A stretch of DNA of 64,000 nt from assembly GCF_022489035.1 (NCBI RefSeq), contig NZ_JAKVTV010000002.1:310001-374000 (forward strand). The letters run 5' to 3'. Source of the stretch: Christiangramia lutea (lineage in GTDB: Bacteria > Bacteroidota > Bacteroidia > Flavobacteriales > Flavobacteriaceae). Shown here piece by piece: positions 33,445 to 42,773 of this stretch (positions are counted from its first letter, which is position 1; each line of letters opens with the position of its first letter). A program made the position numbers and the translations under genes. Below the pieces are notes generated by a model that was not told the DNA's origin, searched no databases, and saw only the letters and a list, made by a program, of their open reading frames with translations.

Positions 33445-33510
33445 TAAAGATTGGATGCCGTACGATCTATAAACAAAGACGGTACATATAAATTAATAAC
33501 AAGTATAGTA

Positions 33511-33705
33511 ATGCAAGAAGGTAAAGTAAAGTTTTTCAATAATACCAAAGGATTTGGTTTTATAAAAGCTGACGATTCAAATGAGGACATCTTTGTACAC
33601 TCAACCGGACTTATTGACGAAATTCGTGAAGATGACAGAGTTCAGTTCGAGGTTGAGCAAGGTAAAAAGGGTCTAAATGCGGTAAACGTAGAGGTGATCG
33701 ACTAA
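33511..33705 (+). CDS. Cold-shock protein, CspA family (first tandem copy)
   Basis: The 64-residue protein MQEGKVKFFNNTKGFGFIKA has RNP1 KGFGFI and RNP2 DIFVHST, with the normal length of single-domain CspA proteins. The ATG at 33511 is chosen because longer frames upstream add unrelated sequence. It is closely related to the copy 93 bases downstream, differing at a minority of positions. It should bind single-stranded RNA and act as an RNA chaperone in the cold. Confidence 0.95.
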   Translation: MQEGKVKFFNNTKGFGFIKADDSNEDIFVHSTGLIDEIREDDRVQFEVEQGKKGLNAVNVEVID

Positions 33706-33797
33706 TTAATTTAGTTCACCATTAGATTTTAAATTAAAATGATCGTTGCCGGCCGATCTCAAACAACGGCAATTTTGTAACAATTAATAATAAAGTA

Positions 33798-33992
33798 ATG
33801 CAAGTAGGTAAAGTTAAATTTTTCAATAATACCAAAGGATTTGGTTTTATTCAAACCGAAGATTCTAACGAAGACATTTTTGTTCACTCAAGTGGACTTA
33901 TCGATGAAATTCGTGAGGACGATAAAGTTCAGTTTGAAACTGAGCAAGGTAGAAAGGGGCTAAACGCTATTAACGTTGAAGTAATCGACTAA
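33798..33992 (+). CDS. Cold-shock protein, CspA family (second tandem copy)
   Basis: The 64-residue protein MQVGKVKFFNNTKGFGFIQT has the same RNP motifs and ending (GLNAINVEVID) as the copy just upstream, so the two arose by tandem duplication. A strong terminator follows directly, which may end a transcript covering both genes. The 92-base spacer carries a GC-rich patch (GTTGCCGGCCGATC) that may be part of a leader. Confidence 0.95.
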   Translation: MQVGKVKFFNNTKGFGFIQTEDSNEDIFVHSSGLIDEIREDDKVQFETEQGRKGLNAINVEVID

Positions 33993-35720: not shown

Positions 35721-37825
35721 ATGAAAGTTTACGATGATAAGCACATAAAGAACGTGGTTTTTGTAGGTGCTCACAATAGCGGCAAAACAACCCTTGCCGA
35801 AACTATGCTCTTTGAGGCCGGACTAATTAACAGAAGAGGTAGCGTAGAAAATAAAAATACAGTTGCAGATTACCACGAAATTGAACTTGAGAAGTCCAAC
35901 TCAATTTTTGCTACTCCTTTACATACAGAATGGAGGAATTACAAGATTAACATTATCGATACACCAGGGCTGGATGATTTCATCGGTGAAGTTATTTCCT
36001 CAATCCGTGTAGCAGATACCATTGTAACCCTTATTAATGGGCAACAGGGAGTGGAGGTAGGAACAGAGATTATCTGGAATTACATTGATAAATACAGGAA
36101 ACCTACATTATTTGTGATCAACCAAATAGATCATCCGGGTTTCAATGCTGAGAAAAATCTAAATTCCATCAGGAATCTTGTGGGAAATAATGCTGTACAA
36201 ATACAGTATCCCATTAAAAAAGATGGAGCTCAATGCATTATTGATGTTTTAAAAATGAAGATGTATAAATTTTCTTCGGAAGGAGGGAAACCTGATAAAC
36301 TGGAGATTCCGGAAGATCAGAAAGAAAAAGCCGATTATCTCCATAATGAACTGGTTGAAAAAGCTGCTGAGAACGATGAAGACCTCATGGAAAAGTTCTT
36401 TGAAAACGGTAGTCTTACCGAAGATGAAATGAGAAAAGGAATAAAGGCCGGGATGCTGAATCATGAACTCTTCCCTGTTTTTTGTGTTTCAGCCCTGAAT
36501 GATATGGGAAGTGGAAGACTCATGGGATTTATTGACAATGTTTGTCCTGCCGCAGCTGATGTAAAAATAGGGGAGAGTACCGCCGGGCAAGACATTAATC
36601 CGGTAAGAGATGAGCCAACAATTTTATTCGTGTTCAAAACAGTACACCAGCCAAACCTGGGCCAGGTTTCGTTTTTTAAGGTAAAGAGGGGAGAAATAAA
36701 GCTTAATGACAAACTGGTGAATTCACGCACAGGTGAAACCGAAACCCTAAACCAGCTTTTTATAATGGACGGCAAACAGCGTATCTCGGTATCCCGTCTT
36801 ACGGTAGGAGATATTGGTGCCAGCCTCAAATTAAAGTCAACCGAGACTAATGATACCCTTCACACCCTGGAAAAAGAAACGATTGTTAAACCTATCCAAT
36901 ATCCTCAACCCAGGTTTAAAAAAGCAATTATGGCGGTTAATAACAAAGATGAAGAAAAACTAAGTGAAGCCTTAAAAAAGATCCATAGCCAGGATCCTAC
37001 AGTTGAAATAAGTTATTCGAAAGAGGGAAGACAGCTTATCGTTGCCTGCCAGGGAGAATTACATTTGGCCATAGTGGAATGGATCCTGAAAAATGTTTAC
37101 GGAGTTGAAGTTAACTTTGACAAGCCGAAAATATCATTCAGGGAAACCATACAGAGATCGGCCAATGCAAATTATAGACATAAGAAGCAATCTGGTGGCT
37201 CTGGTCAGTTTGCCCAGGTGCATATTAAAATTGAACCCTTCTATGAAAATATGCCTGAACCTGAAGGATTTAATATCCGAGGAAAGGAAGAAGTAAAACT
37301 TCCCTGGGGAGGTAAGCTCATTTTCTATAACTGTATCGTAGGTGGAGCATAGATCAGCGATATTTGCCTTCTGTGATGAAGGGTGTACTTGAAGTTATGG
37401 AAGAGGGACCATTAACGGGTTCTTATATAAGAGATGTAAGGGTAATGGTATACGATGGAAAGATGCACTCTGTAGATTCTAATGATATTTCTTTTAAGAT
37501 CGCGGGTGCACATGCATTCAGAGAAGCTTTTCTGAATGCGCAACCTAAACTCCTGGAACCAACCATGGAATTATTTGTGAAGGTGCCTGAGGATATGGTT
37601 GGAAATGTAATGACCGATCTGCAATCGCGAAGGGCTGTTATACAAGGTATAGATAGCGACGCAAACTACCAGATATTAAAGTGTATCGCTCCGGAATCTG
37701 AACTTTACGGTTATTCCACCGATCTTAGGTCACTAACTCAGGGTAGAGCGACATTCAGAACCAGCTTTTCTGCTTACCAACCGGTACCAAATAATGTTCA
37801 AAAAAATATGGTTAATTCTTCCTAA
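35721..37825 (+). pseudogene. EF-G-like translational GTPase paralogue split by a frameshift
   Basis: Codons from 35721 encode an EF-G-like protein with G1 GAHNSGKTT, G3 DTPG, G4 NQID, domain II (IKLNDKLVNSRTGE) and the start of domain IV (SGGSGQFAQVHI). The frame stops at TAG 37350-37352 right after FYNCIVGGA. Adding one A there restores IDQRYLPSVMKGVLEVMEEG and continues through domain V to the stop at 37825, for about 700 residues in all. There is no obvious slippery heptamer, so a single-base deletion, real or from sequencing, is the best reading. The G1 sequence and length mark it as a paralogue of the EF-G2 type, not the main elongation factor. Confidence 0.8.
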
Positions 37826-38004: not shown

Positions 38005-38385
38005 ATGAGTAATGCAGTAATTATTACCGTGGCATTAAAGAATTCAAATGATAATCCACCAAAATTAAAACTAATAGATTCGTTAGGAGGTTCTGGCGAT
38101 AACAATTTGAATACCGAGGTAGCTCTGGGTGCAAATGTCACCTGGGTACCAGATCTAGCATCAGGAATACAGAGTATCGAAATTGTACCAAAGGAAAATG
38201 AAACCAGCATATTTTCTACAAATCCTCATAATACAGGAAATGGAAATTATGAGGCTAGCATCGTAGAAAAGGAACCGGAAAAGAACGGGAAAAAGATCAA
38301 AAGTGAAGATTACTCCATTAAGTTTTATATAGATGGTGATCCGCAAAATTATACAGATGACCCAAAACTATCGATCAAAACCTGA
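38005..38385 (+). CDS. Small beta-rich protein of unknown function, module copy A
   Basis: The 126-residue protein opens SNAVIITVALKNSNDNPPKL and ends in YSIKFYIDGD, then a DDPKL motif. Alternating strands and turns predict a small beta sandwich. It has no signal peptide or membrane segment, so it should be cytosolic. A clear paralogue lies at 40487 (SSNAIIITVSLKNSNSNPPKL, ending YQIGFKIYGD, SDPVL). Each copy is followed immediately by a TPR adenylate cyclase gene, here 27 bases later. The strict pairing suggests joint function, for example sensing or output for the cyclase, but this is inference. I do not recognise a named family. Confidence 0.75.
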   Translation: MSNAVIITVALKNSNDNPPKLKLIDSLGGSGDNNLNTEVALGANVTWVPDLASGIQSIEIVPKENETSIFSTNPHNTGNGNYEASIVEKEPEKNGKKIKSEDYSIKFYIDGDPQNYTDDPKLSIKT

Positions 38386-38412
38386 TAAATCTTAAAGAAA
38401 ACTGAATTCCCT

Positions 38413-40278
38413 ATGTTCAGCAAACAAAAGGTCTGCTTAGTTATAGGCTTAATTCTTCATTTGCAAATTTCTGTATTGGCACAGGATCAAAAACTGGCCG
38501 ATAGCCTGAGATATGCTTATGATGAAGGAAATTTTGAGAATGAACTGGAAGTTCTACAGAAAATTTCGGAATACGAAAGCGACCCCAGTATTGCCTTGAA
38601 CTATTCTGAAATTTTAATTGAAAAAGCAATAAAGAGATCGGAATATGGATTTGCCCATTCCGGATTTTTACAAAAAGGGAATCATTTACAATCACTTGGT
38701 AATTATACCGAAGCTTTGCAGGCTTACTTCGAAAGTGAAAAGCAGGCCGATTTAGCAGATGATAACCTTGGGAAAGCTGGGGTTTTGATCTCTATTGCCG
38801 ACACCTATTCTGAAATGGGCAATTCCAGGAATGCAAAATCATATTATCGCCGTGGGCTAAAGGAAATTAGGGTGCTCAATGATTCAATCGTGCTGGGAAC
38901 AACCCTGTTGAATGCTGGAGATGAATATCTCAAGACAAAGCATTATGATAGTGCTATGCATTATTTTGAAGAGTCTAAATTGATTTTTCAAAAACTGGAG
39001 ATTCCCATAGGATTGGCTTATAATTATGGAAATTCCGGAATGGTTTACGCCGAAACAGGCCGGGATTCTCTCGCTGAAAAGAATATACTTGCTGCCATAG
39101 ATATTCTGGAAGAATTAGAAGATTATCATCCCATAGCCGTATATCTCACATATTTGTCCGACATCTATATACGGAAGAATAATACGGAAATGGCATTTTA
39201 TTATGCTGATAAAAGTTTAAGCCTGGCCAGGAAACAGGATCTAAAAAAGGAAATTAGCGCTGCACACCTGAAGCTGGCACAATTAAATAAAGCTGTTGGA
39301 AATTTTGAAGAAGCTTATGGCCATTATGAAAACTATGTAGTTTATAGAGACAGCATAAAAAATATTACAGCCGTTCAGGAAATGGCGCGCTTACGTACCG
39401 AAAATGAAATTGCAAAAAAACAAAATGAGGTAGATCTCCTCGCTCAAAAAGAAAAAACACAAAAGGCGGTGATGATCGCAACTGGAATAGCCCTGCTTCT
39501 AATTGGATCGATCGCTTTTGGTTTATTCAGAAGAAATAAATTCATTTCCAGAACCAAAGAGATCATTGAAAAAGAGCGAAACAGGTCAGATCAATTATTG
39601 CAGAATATCCTGCCAGAAGAAACCGCTCTGGAATTAAAGAATTCCGGGAAAGTGAAATCCAAAAGGTTCGATTCTGTAAGCGTACTTTTTGCCGATTTTG
39701 TTGGCTTCACCAAATATTCTGAACAGCTAAGCCCGGAAGAGGTTGTGGACAGTGTAGATTTCTATTTTTCCAAATTTGACGAGATCATTGAAAAATATAA
39801 GCTTGAAAAGATCAAGACCTTAGGTGATTGTTATATGTGTGCCGGTGGATTGCCTTTTCCGGTAAAAGACCACGCCCAAAGGCTGGTACTCGCGGCATTT
39901 GAAATGATCGAATTCGTTCGGCACTTTAAGGCTAAATCTGAAATAGACAGTAAAGAGGTGGTCTTTAATATGAAAATCGGAATCAATTCCGGACCGGTAG
40001 TAGCCGGGGTGGTAGGAACGAAAAAATTCGCCTATGATATTTGGGGCGATACCGTAAATATTGCTTCCAGGATGGAATCACTGTCAGAACCGGGACAAAT
40101 AAATATTTCTGATAGCACCTGTAATTTGATCAGGGAAGATTTCATCTGCGAATATAGAGGCGAGATGGAGGTAAAGAACAGGGCGGTAATGAAGATGTAT
40201 TTTGTGAAAGGGGTAAAAGAAAAATCAAGAAAATCTATTCTTGCCGAAGCCAACAGTAGTAATCAAAAGGGAATTTAG
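38413..40278 (+). CDS. Membrane TPR-containing class III adenylate cyclase, module copy A
   Basis: The 621-residue protein has a signal peptide (about 1-23). TPR repeats follow (about 65-325; SYSEMGNSRNAKSYYRRGL and similar), then a membrane helix (about 352-372, MIATGIALLLIGSIAFGLF), a linker with NILPEET, and a C-terminal class III cyclase domain (about 415-605). Catalytic residues are visible: metal Asp428 (FADFVGFT) and Asp472 (KTLGDCY), base-selecting Lys468 and Asp542 (YDIWGD), Asn549 and Arg553 (NIASRM). The Lys/Asp pair predicts cAMP rather than cGMP. The TPRs should be periplasmic and the cyclase cytosolic, a sensor design. It is 27 bases after a small unknown protein gene and has a full paralogue at 40899. 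Confidence 0.9.
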   Translation: MFSKQKVCLVIGLILHLQISVLAQDQKLADSLRYAYDEGNFENELEVLQKISEYESDPSIALNYSEILIEKAIKRSEYGFAHSGFLQKGNHLQSLGNYTEALQAYFESEKQADLADDNLGKAGVLISIADTYSEMGNSRNAKSYYRRGLKEIRVLNDSIVLGTTLLNAGDEYLKTKHYDSAMHYFEESKLIFQKLEIPIGLAYNYGNSGMVYAETGRDSLAEKNILAAIDILEELEDYHPIAVYLTYLSDIYIRKNNTEMAFYYADKSLSLARKQDLKKEISAAHLKLAQLNKAVGNFEEAYGHYENYVVYRDSIKNITAVQEMARLRTENEIAKKQNEVDLLAQKEKTQKAVMIATGIALLLIGSIAFGLFRRNKFISRTKEIIEKERNRSDQLLQNILPEETALELKNSGKVKSKRFDSVSVLFADFVGFTKYSEQLSPEEVVDSVDFYFSKFDEIIEKYKLEKIKTLGDCYMCAGGLPFPVKDHAQRLVLAAFEMIEFVRHFKAKSEIDSKEVVFNMKIGINSGPVVAGVVGTKKFAYDIWGDTVNIASRMESLSEPGQINISDSTCNLIREDFICEYRGEMEVKNRAVMKMYFVKGVKEKSRKSILAEANSSNQKGI

Positions 40279-40486
40279 ATGCTCTATATCAACATTTTCA
40301 ACCTTTGGTTTTCTTTAACTCAATGAATGTATGACCTTGTAAGTCAACGAATTATATATATTCTAATTCGGGAAATCTAAAAATTTCTCCTAAATTTACA
40401 AATCCCTGAAAACCAGAACGAAACCCTCTTTGGTTTTAATTTGTCTCATCTCTTTTTGTCGTAATCAACCAATTCAAATAAATAAA

Positions 40487-40897
40487 ATGGAAACCAACCA
40501 AAATTCAAAAGTCATGAGTAGTAATGCAATAATTATTACAGTTAGTTTAAAGAACTCTAATTCCAATCCACCAAAACTGAAATTAAAAGATTCAAAAGGT
40601 AAAAACCCTAAAAATGAAAATTTAACTACAGATGTTTTTCCTGGTAATGTAATAACCTGGATTCCAAATGATAGTTCCGGTGTTAGCGAATTAACCGATA
40701 TCAAATTAAAGAATAAGGATGGTACAAACCTTCTGGAGGGTTCCATTTCCAGATTAGGAAACAAACTGCAGGGGAAAGTAATAGGGGAACCACTTACTCC
40801 TCCAGGTAAGGACAGAATGGTTTATCAAATTGGATTCAAAATATATGGAGATGATAATGAATATTGGAGCGATCCGGTATTACAAATGAATTATTAG
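40487..40897 (+). CDS. Small beta-rich protein of unknown function, module copy B
   Basis: The 136-residue protein is the paralogue of the gene at 38005. Shared features include the opening NAIIITVSLKNSNSNPPKLKL, a central TWIPNDSSG, and the end YQIGFKIYGDDNEYWSDPVLQ. Spacing and loops differ, so the duplication is not recent. The ATG at 40487 follows an A-rich leader (AATAAA); an inner ATG at 40514 aligns better with copy A and is possible. It has no signal peptide. The cyclase gene starts two bases after its stop, an even tighter link than in copy A. The function is unknown. Confidence 0.75.
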   Translation: METNQNSKVMSSNAIIITVSLKNSNSNPPKLKLKDSKGKNPKNENLTTDVFPGNVITWIPNDSSGVSELTDIKLKNKDGTNLLEGSISRLGNKLQGKVIGEPLTPPGKDRMVYQIGFKIYGDDNEYWSDPVLQMNY

Positions 40898-40898
40898 T

Positions 40899-42773
40899 AT
40901 GAGGAACCCGCCCAAGTTTTTTTTATTTAAATCTTTGATCATTCTTCTTTTCGCAATTTCATTTGCTTCAGCTCAAAATACTAAAGCTTTAGATAGCCTT
41001 ATTGAACAATATGAATTGGGAAAAGTTGAGGGGGATAATTTGCCAATTTTAAAGCAAATAGCCGAAAAACTACAGAATCCTGAGCGTAAAAAGAAGTATG
41101 CCGATTTGCTTATTCAGGAAGCGGCGAAGGATACTAACTATTTATATCTCATAAGTGGATATCTTCAGAAAGGACATGCTTTTCAATTAAAAGGCGATTA
41201 TGCTGATGCCTTGGAGGCCTACTTTAAAAGCAGGGATCTTTCCGTTAAGAGTGATGATGACTTAGGTGTTGGAGCAGCTACAATCTCTATTGCCAACACT
41301 TATGCAATGAGCGGAAACTTTAAAACTGCTAATGACTATTATGATAATGGTATAGAATCACTAAGAAAAATTGGAGATAGTGTTCGTATCGCTACAGCCT
41401 TGCAAAATGCCGGTGATTTTGCGTTTAAGGCTGGATTTTATGATGAAGCCCTGGAATACCTGGAAGAATCCAAAGAGATTTTTTCGAGAAAAAATTTTCA
41501 ATTAGGCCTGGCATATTCGATAGGGACCATAGGTATGGTATATGCCGATCAAAATAAAGAGGAATTAGCCAGGGAGAATATGAATCAGGCTATTGGTATG
41601 CTCGAAGAACAAAAGCAGTACTATCCTATATCTGAATTTCTGATGAGTTTCTCCAATATATATGCAAAGCAGGATGAATTAGATCTGGCAATTTCCTATG
41701 CAAACAGAAGTTTAATCCTGGCCAAAGAATATAATTTGAAAGACCAGATAAGTGAAGCAAATCTTCAGCTTTCTGAACTCTATAAACAAAAAGCTAATTA
41801 TCAATCAGCTTACGAATATTATAGGGACCATATTAAGTTCAGAGATAGTATTACCAATGTTGGGGCCGTTCAGGAAATGGCTAGAATACGTACAGATAAT
41901 GAGATCGCCCGAAAACAGGTGGAGATCGATCTTATGGAGCAACAAAGAAGAACCCAGAAATTTATTGGAATTGCCACTGCCGTTGCTCTGCTATCTATTA
42001 TAATAATTGCCATTGGTCTTTACAGAAGAAATAAATACATAAATAAGACTAAAAAGATCATTGAAAATGAGAGAAACAGGTCAGATAAACTTTTATTGAA
42101 TATTCTTCCGGAAGAAACCGCCAGGGAATTAAAATTTGCCGGTAGGGTGAAATCCAAAAAATTTGAAATGGTCAGCGTGCTTTTTGCGGACATAGTGGGA
42201 TTTACAAAAATATCGGAAACCTTCTCACCTGAAGATCTGGTAAAAAAAGTGGATAATTACTTTTCAAAATTCGACCAGTTAATGGAAAAATATTCCCTCG
42301 AAAAGATTAAAACCATGGGCGATTGTTACATGTGTGCCGGAGGTTTGCCTTTTCCTTCAAAAGAACACGCTGTGAATATTGTTCTTGTAGCTTTTGAGAT
42401 GATGGACTACATGCATGAAATGAGGAGAAGAAATGAAGAATTATACAATTTCCATTTAAGAATTGGAATAAACTCGGGACCTGTAGTAGCCGGGGTAGTG
42501 GGTAGTAAAAAATTCAGTTATGATATTTGGGGTGACACTGTAAATATCGCTTCAAGGATGGAATCCAGTTCAGAAATGGATAAAATAAATGTTTCTGCCA
42601 ACACCTATGAATTAATTAAAGATGATTTTGATTGCGAATACAGGGGAGAGATAGAGGTTAAGAATAAGGGATCTATGAGGATGTACTATGTAAAGGCAAT
42701 TAAGAACAAAACACTTCTGAATGACCTAAAAGCCAGAATTGGTAAAAAGGAGCTATTGAAGGAATCTGGTTAG
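40899..42773 (+). CDS. Membrane TPR-containing class III adenylate cyclase, module copy B
   Basis: The 624-residue protein repeats the architecture of the gene at 38413: signal peptide (about 1-25, ending ASAQ), TPRs (about 70-330), a membrane helix (about 355-375, IGIATAVALLSIIIIAIGLY) and a cyclase domain. Catalytic residues are Asp431 (FADIVGFT), Asp475 (KTMGDCY), Lys471, Asp542 (YDIWGD), Asn549 and Arg553, again predicting adenylate cyclase activity. Two complete catalytic copies side by side, each behind its own small partner, suggest two inputs feeding cAMP rather than redundancy. Its stop overlaps the convergent GNAT gene by four bases. Confidence 0.9.
   Translation: MRNPPKFFLFKSLIILLFAISFASAQNTKALDSLIEQYELGKVEGDNLPILKQIAEKLQNPERKKKYADLLIQEAAKDTNYLYLISGYLQKGHAFQLKGDYADALEAYFKSRDLSVKSDDDLGVGAATISIANTYAMSGNFKTANDYYDNGIESLRKIGDSVRIATALQNAGDFAFKAGFYDEALEYLEESKEIFSRKNFQLGLAYSIGTIGMVYADQNKEELARENMNQAIGMLEEQKQYYPISEFLMSFSNIYAKQDELDLAISYANRSLILAKEYNLKDQISEANLQLSELYKQKANYQSAYEYYRDHIKFRDSITNVGAVQEMARIRTDNEIARKQVEIDLMEQQRRTQKFIGIATAVALLSIIIIAIGLYRRNKYINKTKKIIENERNRSDKLLLNILPEETARELKFAGRVKSKKFEMVSVLFADIVGFTKISETFSPEDLVKKVDNYFSKFDQLMEKYSLEKIKTMGDCYMCAGGLPFPSKEHAVNIVLVAFEMMDYMHEMRRRNEELYNFHLRIGINSGPVVAGVVGSKKFSYDIWGDTVNIASRMESSSEMDKINVSANTYELIKDDFDCEYRGEIEVKNKGSMRMYYVKAIKNKTLLNDLKARIGKKELLKESG

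Follow-up and report, generated by a model that had tools for sequence, protein, structure and literature searches.

Receptors whose tetratricopeptide repeats (TPR) recognise peptides encoded next door exist, and those of the RRNPP group are cytoplasmic TPR proteins that bind a processed peptide and act through a helix-turn-helix (HTH) or phosphatase output. The DP-EP protein SO1698, named an aspartic peptidase in its PDB titles, reportedly cuts its own Asp-Pro bond. Known Pycsar cyclases (PycC) make cyclic UMP (cUMP) or cyclic CMP (cCMP), and their pockets are of three described types, Y50/D94/R97, F100/R142/Q144 and F60/K104/F109 (accessible text of PMC11224242). MakC and MakD of Vibrio cholerae are cytosolic accessory proteins of unknown function (accessible text of PMC11484084), and PixA proteins, 173-191 aa in length, are described as poorly understood (accessible text of PMC9060813). 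The locus described here lies in a 64,000-nucleotide stretch of Christiangramia lutea DNA (contig NZ_JAKVTV010000002.1, positions 310,001 to 374,000; hereafter the window; whole genome, 3.47 Mb), in which a small protein that we call S precedes a TPR class III cyclase (C), twice in succession. The S-cyclase pairing is wide, strict and without description in searchable sources, none having been found in the open-access literature searched, which omits most subscription journals. We consider the chances about even that S provides the input to a TPR-sensing adenylate cyclase as its partner and that the product, most likely cyclic AMP (cAMP), is read by the membrane effector PycTM.

The features of the two pairs are as follows, in window coordinates.

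S1, 38005..38385, plus strand: 126 aa; predicted PixA/MakCD-fold beta-sandwich; no signal peptide by the hydropathy rule; based on the open reading frame (ORF), AlphaFold2 (AF2), Foldseek and orthologues adjoining a cyclase.
S1 Asp119-Pro120 codons, 38359..38364, plus strand: near-invariant across the family; the location resembles Asp116-Pro117 of SO1698.
C1, 38413..40278, plus strand: 621 aa; N-terminal signal or transmembrane (TM) segment, TPR sensor, single TM helix, class III cyclase.
C1 predicted TM segment, residues 353-371, 39469..39525, plus strand: by hydropathy alone.
C1 cyclase domain, residues 414-600, with adenine-type Lys468/Asp542, 39652..40212, plus strand: domain match and alignment.
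S2, 40487..40897, plus strand: 136 aa; second S, with a 1 nt gap to C2.
S2 Asp129-Pro130 codons, 40871..40876, plus strand: from the ORF sequence.
C2, 40899..42773, plus strand: 624 aa; second TPR class III cyclase.
C2 cyclase domain, residues 417-599, 42147..42695, plus strand: domain match.

The four ORFs of the original prediction were all located where it had placed them, with gaps of 27 nt between S1 and C1 and 1 nt between S2 and C2; S2 starts at ATG 40487, and its open frame extends upstream to TTG 40430. The small proteins had been called paralogous on account of a common opening and a DP-L close, and alignment agrees (39% identity, 126 columns, E 4e-20; closing motif DP-x-L). Each indeed precedes a TPR class III cyclase, as the Pfam Guanylate_cyc domain scored 197.9 bits in C1 and 209 bits in C2 against a cut-off of 21.9, with TPR matches in both. 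C1 and C2 are 52% identical across 595 columns and have the same layout, in which a hydrophobic segment at the N-terminus is followed by TPR repeats, a single TM segment at about residue 355 (by hydropathy) and the Guanylate_cyc domain.

The catalytic residues named at the outset are likewise in place. Asp428 and Asp472, Lys468 and Asp542, and Asn549 and Arg553 (C1 numbering), which we take to be the metal-binding, adenine-recognising and catalytic Asn/Arg positions, respectively, are invariant across a 9-sequence alignment, and all six are retained in 56 of 57 S-paired cyclases (58 rows minus L073, dropped as a histidine kinase), the exception being L137, in which His replaces Arg. A Lys/Asp pocket pair marks a preference for ATP (adenine); Lys468 and Asp542 would, by this residue rule, indicate an ATP substrate and most likely cAMP as product. 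A third TPR cyclase of the same genome (L041:4902-6749) is preceded by a third S, which bears a signal peptide, so that S stands in front of all three TPR cyclases found there. A fourth class III cyclase (L042:5845-7173, contig C27) is of a different kind, with no TPR by eye, no S upstream, a 2Fe-2S ferredoxin-like N-terminus and a globin-like C-terminus, both also judged by eye.

The pairing extends across genera and families. Every congener with an S1-type match has the S-cyclase pair (5/5), as do five of five further loci in Gillisia, Mangrovimonas and Xanthomarina. A profile built from Christiangramia alone found 13 places outside its own genome among 199 Flavobacteriaceae genomes, with a TPR cyclase as the next gene in 11. 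The remaining two are weak and lack the module (L025, E 0.072; L026, E 0.097) and were set aside as chance matches, as was L008 (E 0.008), which overlaps a fructose-bisphosphatase-like frame. Two broader searches, of 392 Bacteroidota and 395 Flavobacteriaceae genomes, started from the cyclase. Their profile (A2) derived from nine cyclases paired with S, and a high score therefore favours the clade of these; at most three candidates were scored per genome, which makes the cyclase counts lower bounds. S was recognised by eye in the first set and by a second profile (A3) in the other, and because A3 was built partly from genomes searched again later, those recalls are not independent, unlike that of the Christiangramia-only profile.

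A cyclase match at E<=1e-40 is contained in 95 of the 392 Bacteroidota genomes, and S stands in front of all 15 cyclases above 700 bits (three of them from the genome of the window), including a very divergent S of 94 aa at L054. The Flavobacteriaceae set gave 79 cyclases of at least 600 bits, 74 of which have S no more than 1.3 kb upstream by coordinate matching; S was missed by the profile and found by eye at L180 and lies directly downstream at L168 and L169, and in all S adjoins 77 of these 79 full-length cyclases within 1.3 kb. Counted from the side of S, 88 of 94 places lie beside a TPR cyclase or TPR kinase. Coordinates matched 81 to a listed cyclase, some of these being separated from it by another S or small gene and two (G677, G214) being judged from coordinates alone; of the 13 unmatched places, six adjoin a cyclase in reversed order, unlisted or unscored, and one precedes a TPR histidine kinase. 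Neighbours were scanned in loci of limited length, about 1.5 kb on each side for many. The original prediction had turned on how often a TPR cyclase adjoins homologues of S, and the homologues were found mainly beside one.

The median S-cyclase offset is 7 nt (52 pairs, chosen less than 400 nt apart), tandem S-S-cyclase layouts occur, and a search for S1 in plasmids gave no match. A gene of about 160 aa is the third member of some operons (L019, L020, L024, L028, L182 and L183) and is placed between S and the cyclase at the last two; no Pfam family scored above its cut-off in the four copies scanned. Both this gene and the squalene-cyclase-like neighbours at L016 and L017 were rejected as general parts of the module and are regarded as local additions.

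That S is a partner of the cyclase, as originally predicted, is supported by the pairing in several genome samples, and the relation can be refined, since S appears to go with the TPR sensor half. At L073, S precedes a TPR-HisKA-HATPase protein, and at L176 an S with a profile match of E 2.6e-5 only, the model of which shows the same fold, precedes a TPR histidine kinase followed by a response regulator (by eye). In these two cases, S is thus kept where a kinase takes the place of the cyclase. TPR sensor histidine kinases of Bacteroidota, of which these two carry S, resemble C1 and C2 in their layout of N-terminal hydrophobic segment, TPR and TM segment (by eye) and differ in having an output kinase instead of a cyclase. 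Partial correlations of S distances point the same way, being 0.34 with the TPR half versus 0.16 with the catalytic half over 52 pairs, and 0.38 versus 0.11 over the 37 unsignalled pairs.

A quick tree of 44 cyclase rows splits by upstream gene, with 33 rows preceded by S (SH-aLRT 100), 7 by an NHLP-type gene (100) and 3 by a subtilase-type gene (one group, support 47), and one row with neither; L073 is a TPR histidine kinase in this tree, and its long branch is an artefact thereof. In the NHLP-type sister clade all seven rows (L070, L072, L077-L081) have an NHLP-like gene of 102-113 aa upstream, and two of three scanned proteins scored above the TIGR03793 cut-off, one below. These loci, which are possibly peptide-sensing cyclases, resemble the S-cyclase pair in their small upstream gene and differ in that the protein is of the precursor type of ribosomally synthesised and post-translationally modified peptides (RiPPs), with no S fold shown. 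A ThiF/E1-like gene lies farther upstream at L077, L079 and L080 (by eye). Large secreted-looking proteins stand before the cyclases at L185-L192, at no more than 12 nt in seven and at 373 nt at L190; all eight loci are outside the tree, and the sole subtilase-type case scanned for domains, L185, has Peptidase_S8 and a type IX secretion system (T9SS) tail. Similar proteins precede TPR cyclases at L075, L085 and L086, and HD or PycTM genes follow at L185-L192.

The description of S as beta-rich is borne out by AlphaFold2 (35 S sequences), which gives S1 as a confident beta sandwich (pLDDT 92.8, pTM 0.86). Among solved structures, Foldseek placed SO1698 first for this model (E 5.3e-6, TM 0.62), with MakD (6tct) at 1.9e-5 and 4q52 as the best PixA-like entry seen (E 9.4e-4). 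The model of the L176 S (pLDDT 79.6) matched MakD 6tct at 1.8e-7 and the PixA structures 4pib and 4lzk at E 2e-5 to 6e-4. Searched against PDB sequences, the S profile found MakD first (E 0.0029) and second 8rqy (E 0.052), which belongs to the MakC/MakD study. Family profiles gave weak matches. PixA (PF12306) matched 2 of 35 S at E<=1, with a best E of 0.0037 that falls short of a confident match (about 18 bits, estimated from other rows, against a curated cut-off of 21) and no match in the genome of the window at E<=10, and MakCD (NF049870) matched 4 of 35 (best E 0.0096); these are the sole Pfam or NCBIfam families matched by more than one S at E<=1. phrog_1194, which carries no function, matched 2 of 35 (best 1.6e-4). 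Because the profile matches are weak, S is assigned to a fold class without being made a member of any of these families, and a curated family name for S was rejected. On the predicted models, S falls in the PixA/MakC-MakD/DP-EP fold class; the original label of unknown protein has to be corrected on this point.

Likeness to described members of the class goes only so far. S resembles PixA/AidA (PF12306; 4lzk, 4pib) in the beta-sandwich fold, seen with the L176 model, and in weak profile matches; it differs in that most S fall below the length of PixA (173-191 aa in the accessible text of PMC9060813), in lacking a confident profile match, in being tied to a TPR sensor and in that part of its members look exported. 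MakC and MakD (NF049870; 6tct, 8rqy) are the closest solved structures by profile, and by fold for the L176 S; they too are small proteins heading an operon and are cytosolic, as most S are unsignalled, but they accompany a tripartite pore-forming set, whereas S accompanies a signalling receptor. The Pro of a C-terminal Asp-Pro is invariant in 35 S rows and the Asp present in at least 90%; among 82 unique S ORFs, the motif was found in 76 by script and 78 by eye (adding L137 and L042), and L054 and L170 have Ser-Pro and Glu-Pro in its place.

By a hydropathy rule, the only means by which signal peptides were called, 33 of the 82 unique S carry one. S2 was flagged through its TTG start only and is counted as unsignalled, which leaves 32 with a signal peptide and 50 without. 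The exported S lie mostly on early branches of the S clade in the cyclase tree, at forks with support of 81-94. The TPR half of C1 and C2 should be periplasmic, judging from the predicted layout of the cyclases.

Some modules have neighbours that are PycTM proteins above the Pfam cut-off, and others have HD-domain proteins. The 61 genomes with these cyclases hold 107 PycTM genes, of which 57 are short (frames of 169-234 aa) and 50 long (about 400 aa); the one long PycTM scanned, L203 of the genome of the window, is an HD-PycTM protein. A short PycTM lies within 3 kb of 20 of the 79 cyclases of at least 600 bits, where simple density would predict 0.19 and where no long PycTM occurs, and of 8 of 23 in the 400-600 bit class. 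Within 5 kb of a listed cyclase are 28 of 57 short and none of 50 long PycTM. Sixteen non-redundant cyclases that reach 440 bits lack an S detected by the profile (L180 being counted among them though its S is present by eye); 6 of them have PycTM and 12 an HD gene within 1.6 kb. The original prediction had noted that a kinase or CRP-like reader of cAMP is absent from the window. No PycTM occurs in the window; the genome encodes one short PycTM (L204) and one long (L203), both away from the module, and L204 is 56-60% identical to the module-linked PycTM of six relatives and 33-45% to others. PycTM is plausibly the reader absent from the window. The module is akin to Pycsar (PycC plus PycTM) in its class III cyclase and in the short PycTM near 20 of 79 relatives, and unlike it in its TPR receptor architecture, adenine-type pocket, extra S gene and lack of PycTM in the window.

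In the mechanism that we propose, the TPR domain would lie in the periplasm and the class III cyclase in the cytoplasm, with a single transmembrane helix and a signalling helix connecting them. S would be the dedicated input-side partner of this receptor, as ligand or sensor subunit, and its engagement by the TPR domain would change cyclase activity; the physical contact and the direction of regulation are what we infer. The product, most likely cAMP, would then be read by PycTM, whose gene adjoins the module in many relatives and lies at another site in this genome. A more elaborate version, which we hold as doubtful speculation, would be a protein-gated cAMP form of Pycsar, in which the fast-diverging S, with its PixA fold, would be the private ligand of its genome's periplasmic TPR receptor; S exported or released by kin lysis, or its tail cleaved at Asp-Pro, would turn the cyclase on, cAMP would gate PycTM, and NHLP-type peptides and secreted subtilases would be the inputs of the sister clades.

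Several observations weigh against the input-partner mechanism, and the mismatch of compartments is its main gap. S1 and S2 have no signal peptide, while their cyclases keep an N-terminal hydrophobic segment; as 50 of 82 S are unsignalled, S and TPR may occupy different compartments, and one S without a signal has a C-terminal TM segment (by eye). S may be released by an unconventional route or may have shifted to the cytoplasmic side. The 15 exported pairs track the catalytic half (0.39) more than the TPR half (0.30), which makes the distance correlations a weak line of evidence. As to the pairing itself, an S1-type match was absent at E<=0.01 from 18 of 23 congeners, no S was found in the stretch read at two cyclases of at least 600 bits (L178, L179), S accompanies only 2 of 23 cyclases scoring 400-600 bits, and 6 of 94 S places have no adjoining TPR cyclase or TPR kinase. 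Among these stray places, L167 and L174 have no sensor near S, and at L173 and L177 the match is an S-like domain at the C-terminal end of a large lipoprotein-like protein, in one case encoded in the genome of the window. Proteins of this kind ending in an S-like domain are L042:10358-11749 (same genome) and L177:107-2143, with no TPR cyclase in the stretch read. At L171, S lies directly behind a 580-aa protein with TPR matches, and at L175 it is flanked by two proteins that by eye resemble the 580-aa one. On the output side, 59 of the 79 cyclases, including those of the window, have no PycTM within 3 kb, some genomes with the pair (e.g., G016, G030) encode only long PycTM, and the signals given for known Pycsar cyclases in the accessible text of PMC11224242 are not cAMP.

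S might instead be a cytoplasmic inhibitor, activator or assembly factor that acts on the linker or the catalytic half of the enzyme. We regard this as unlikely. Such a role would suit S1, S2 and the rest of the 50 unsignalled S, the translation of S directly before the cyclase at the short offsets given above, the S with a C-terminal TM segment and the slight leaning of exported pairs toward the catalytic half; it is at odds with the two TPR histidine kinases that lack a cyclase half and are also preceded by S, with the unsignalled pairs, which track the TPR half, and with the 32 S that look exported.

Rather improbable is that the cassette serves in Pycsar-like defence against phages, with S detecting infection. 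Short PycTM belongs to a published anti-phage effector family and is strongly linked to these cyclases, PADLOC PycC models match C1 at 46 bits, and presence among congeners is patchy. However, the PADLOC matches may reflect the common class III domain only, and the HD-domain genes and subtilase-type sister clades suggest general signalling. The pocket, too, is unlike the three PycC types in the accessible text of PMC11224242: Phe426 corresponds to F100/F60 by counting from the first metal Asp, but Lys468/Asp542 are adenine-type.

By analogy with RRNPP peptide-TPR pairs, S might cleave itself at Asp-Pro and yield a short C-terminal peptide sensed by the TPR domain at the membrane, an idea that we consider quite improbable. 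In its favour, Foldseek matched S1 best to SO1698, which the PDB titles name an aspartic peptidase and which reportedly cleaves itself, and the near-invariant Asp-Pro of S stands close to the C terminus, as it does in SO1698. The likeness consists of fold and Asp-Pro position, and the DP-EP family PF08985 has no match in the genome of the window at E<=10 (2 candidates scored) and is not among the families matched by the 35 S at E<=1. MakD and MakC are the solved structures closest to S when sequence profiles are compared, and the terms 'self-cleav' and 'peptidase' are absent from the accessible text of the paper on these proteins (PMC11484084). Ser-Pro at L054 and Glu-Pro at L170 also speak against cleavage, and the receptors differ from RRNPP in that the TPR of C1 and C2 stands behind an N-terminal hydrophobic segment and the output is a cyclase.

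That S is instead an output, target or product of a cAMP-controlled pathway, the target role having been an alternative in the original prediction, is very improbable: that S shares the operon does not by itself tell an input from an output, and S lies behind the cyclase in two genomes (L168, L169), but S stays with TPR sensors that have a histidine-kinase output, so that cAMP cannot be the general link, and domain scans recognised no cyclic-nucleotide-binding domain in S.

The two pairs of the window do not derive from a recent local duplication. Five congeners carry one pair at the same place, to which S1-C1 corresponds, and in four of them a GNAT gene follows 3-54 nt behind the cyclase; in the window, S2-C2 lies between C1 and the GNAT gene. 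S1 shares 51-56% identity with the S proteins of Mangrovimonas and Gillisia and 39% with S2, for which reason S2-C2 was rejected as a recent tandem duplicate. The best outside matches of S2 are in Mangrovimonas and Xanthomarina (50%), and that of C2 is in a Christiangramia metagenome-assembled genome (MAG; 57%). The tandem layout originally described is therefore correct, recent duplication is not, and by these identities the second pair would be an old duplicate or a lateral arrival that came or stayed as a pair. One congener has at the spot of S2-C2 a 948-aa protein, M16 peptidase-like by eye (L009:9777-12623).

Elsewhere in the window, an EF-G-like gene (35721-37825) is split over two frames (543 + 153 aa), which is either a frame change or an assembly error; in three congeners the gene is uninterrupted, with a frame of 701-704 aa. 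Two tandem copies of a small protein of 64 aa that by eye resembles cold-shock proteins are also present (33451-33992), and four congeners have two or three.

The S-cyclase(-PycTM) set looks like an undescribed signalling cassette in marine flavobacteria. Since the partner of this receptor is genetically fixed, both the stimuli sensed by Bacteroidota TPR receptors and the function of cAMP in flavobacteria become testable. As far as we are aware, a pairing of cAMP with PycTM would be new, and if PycTM answers to cAMP here, this effector family would extend past cUMP and cCMP. If S is indeed the input partner of the TPR receptor, the PixA/AidA/MakCD fold would gain a concrete role and a receptor as its partner.

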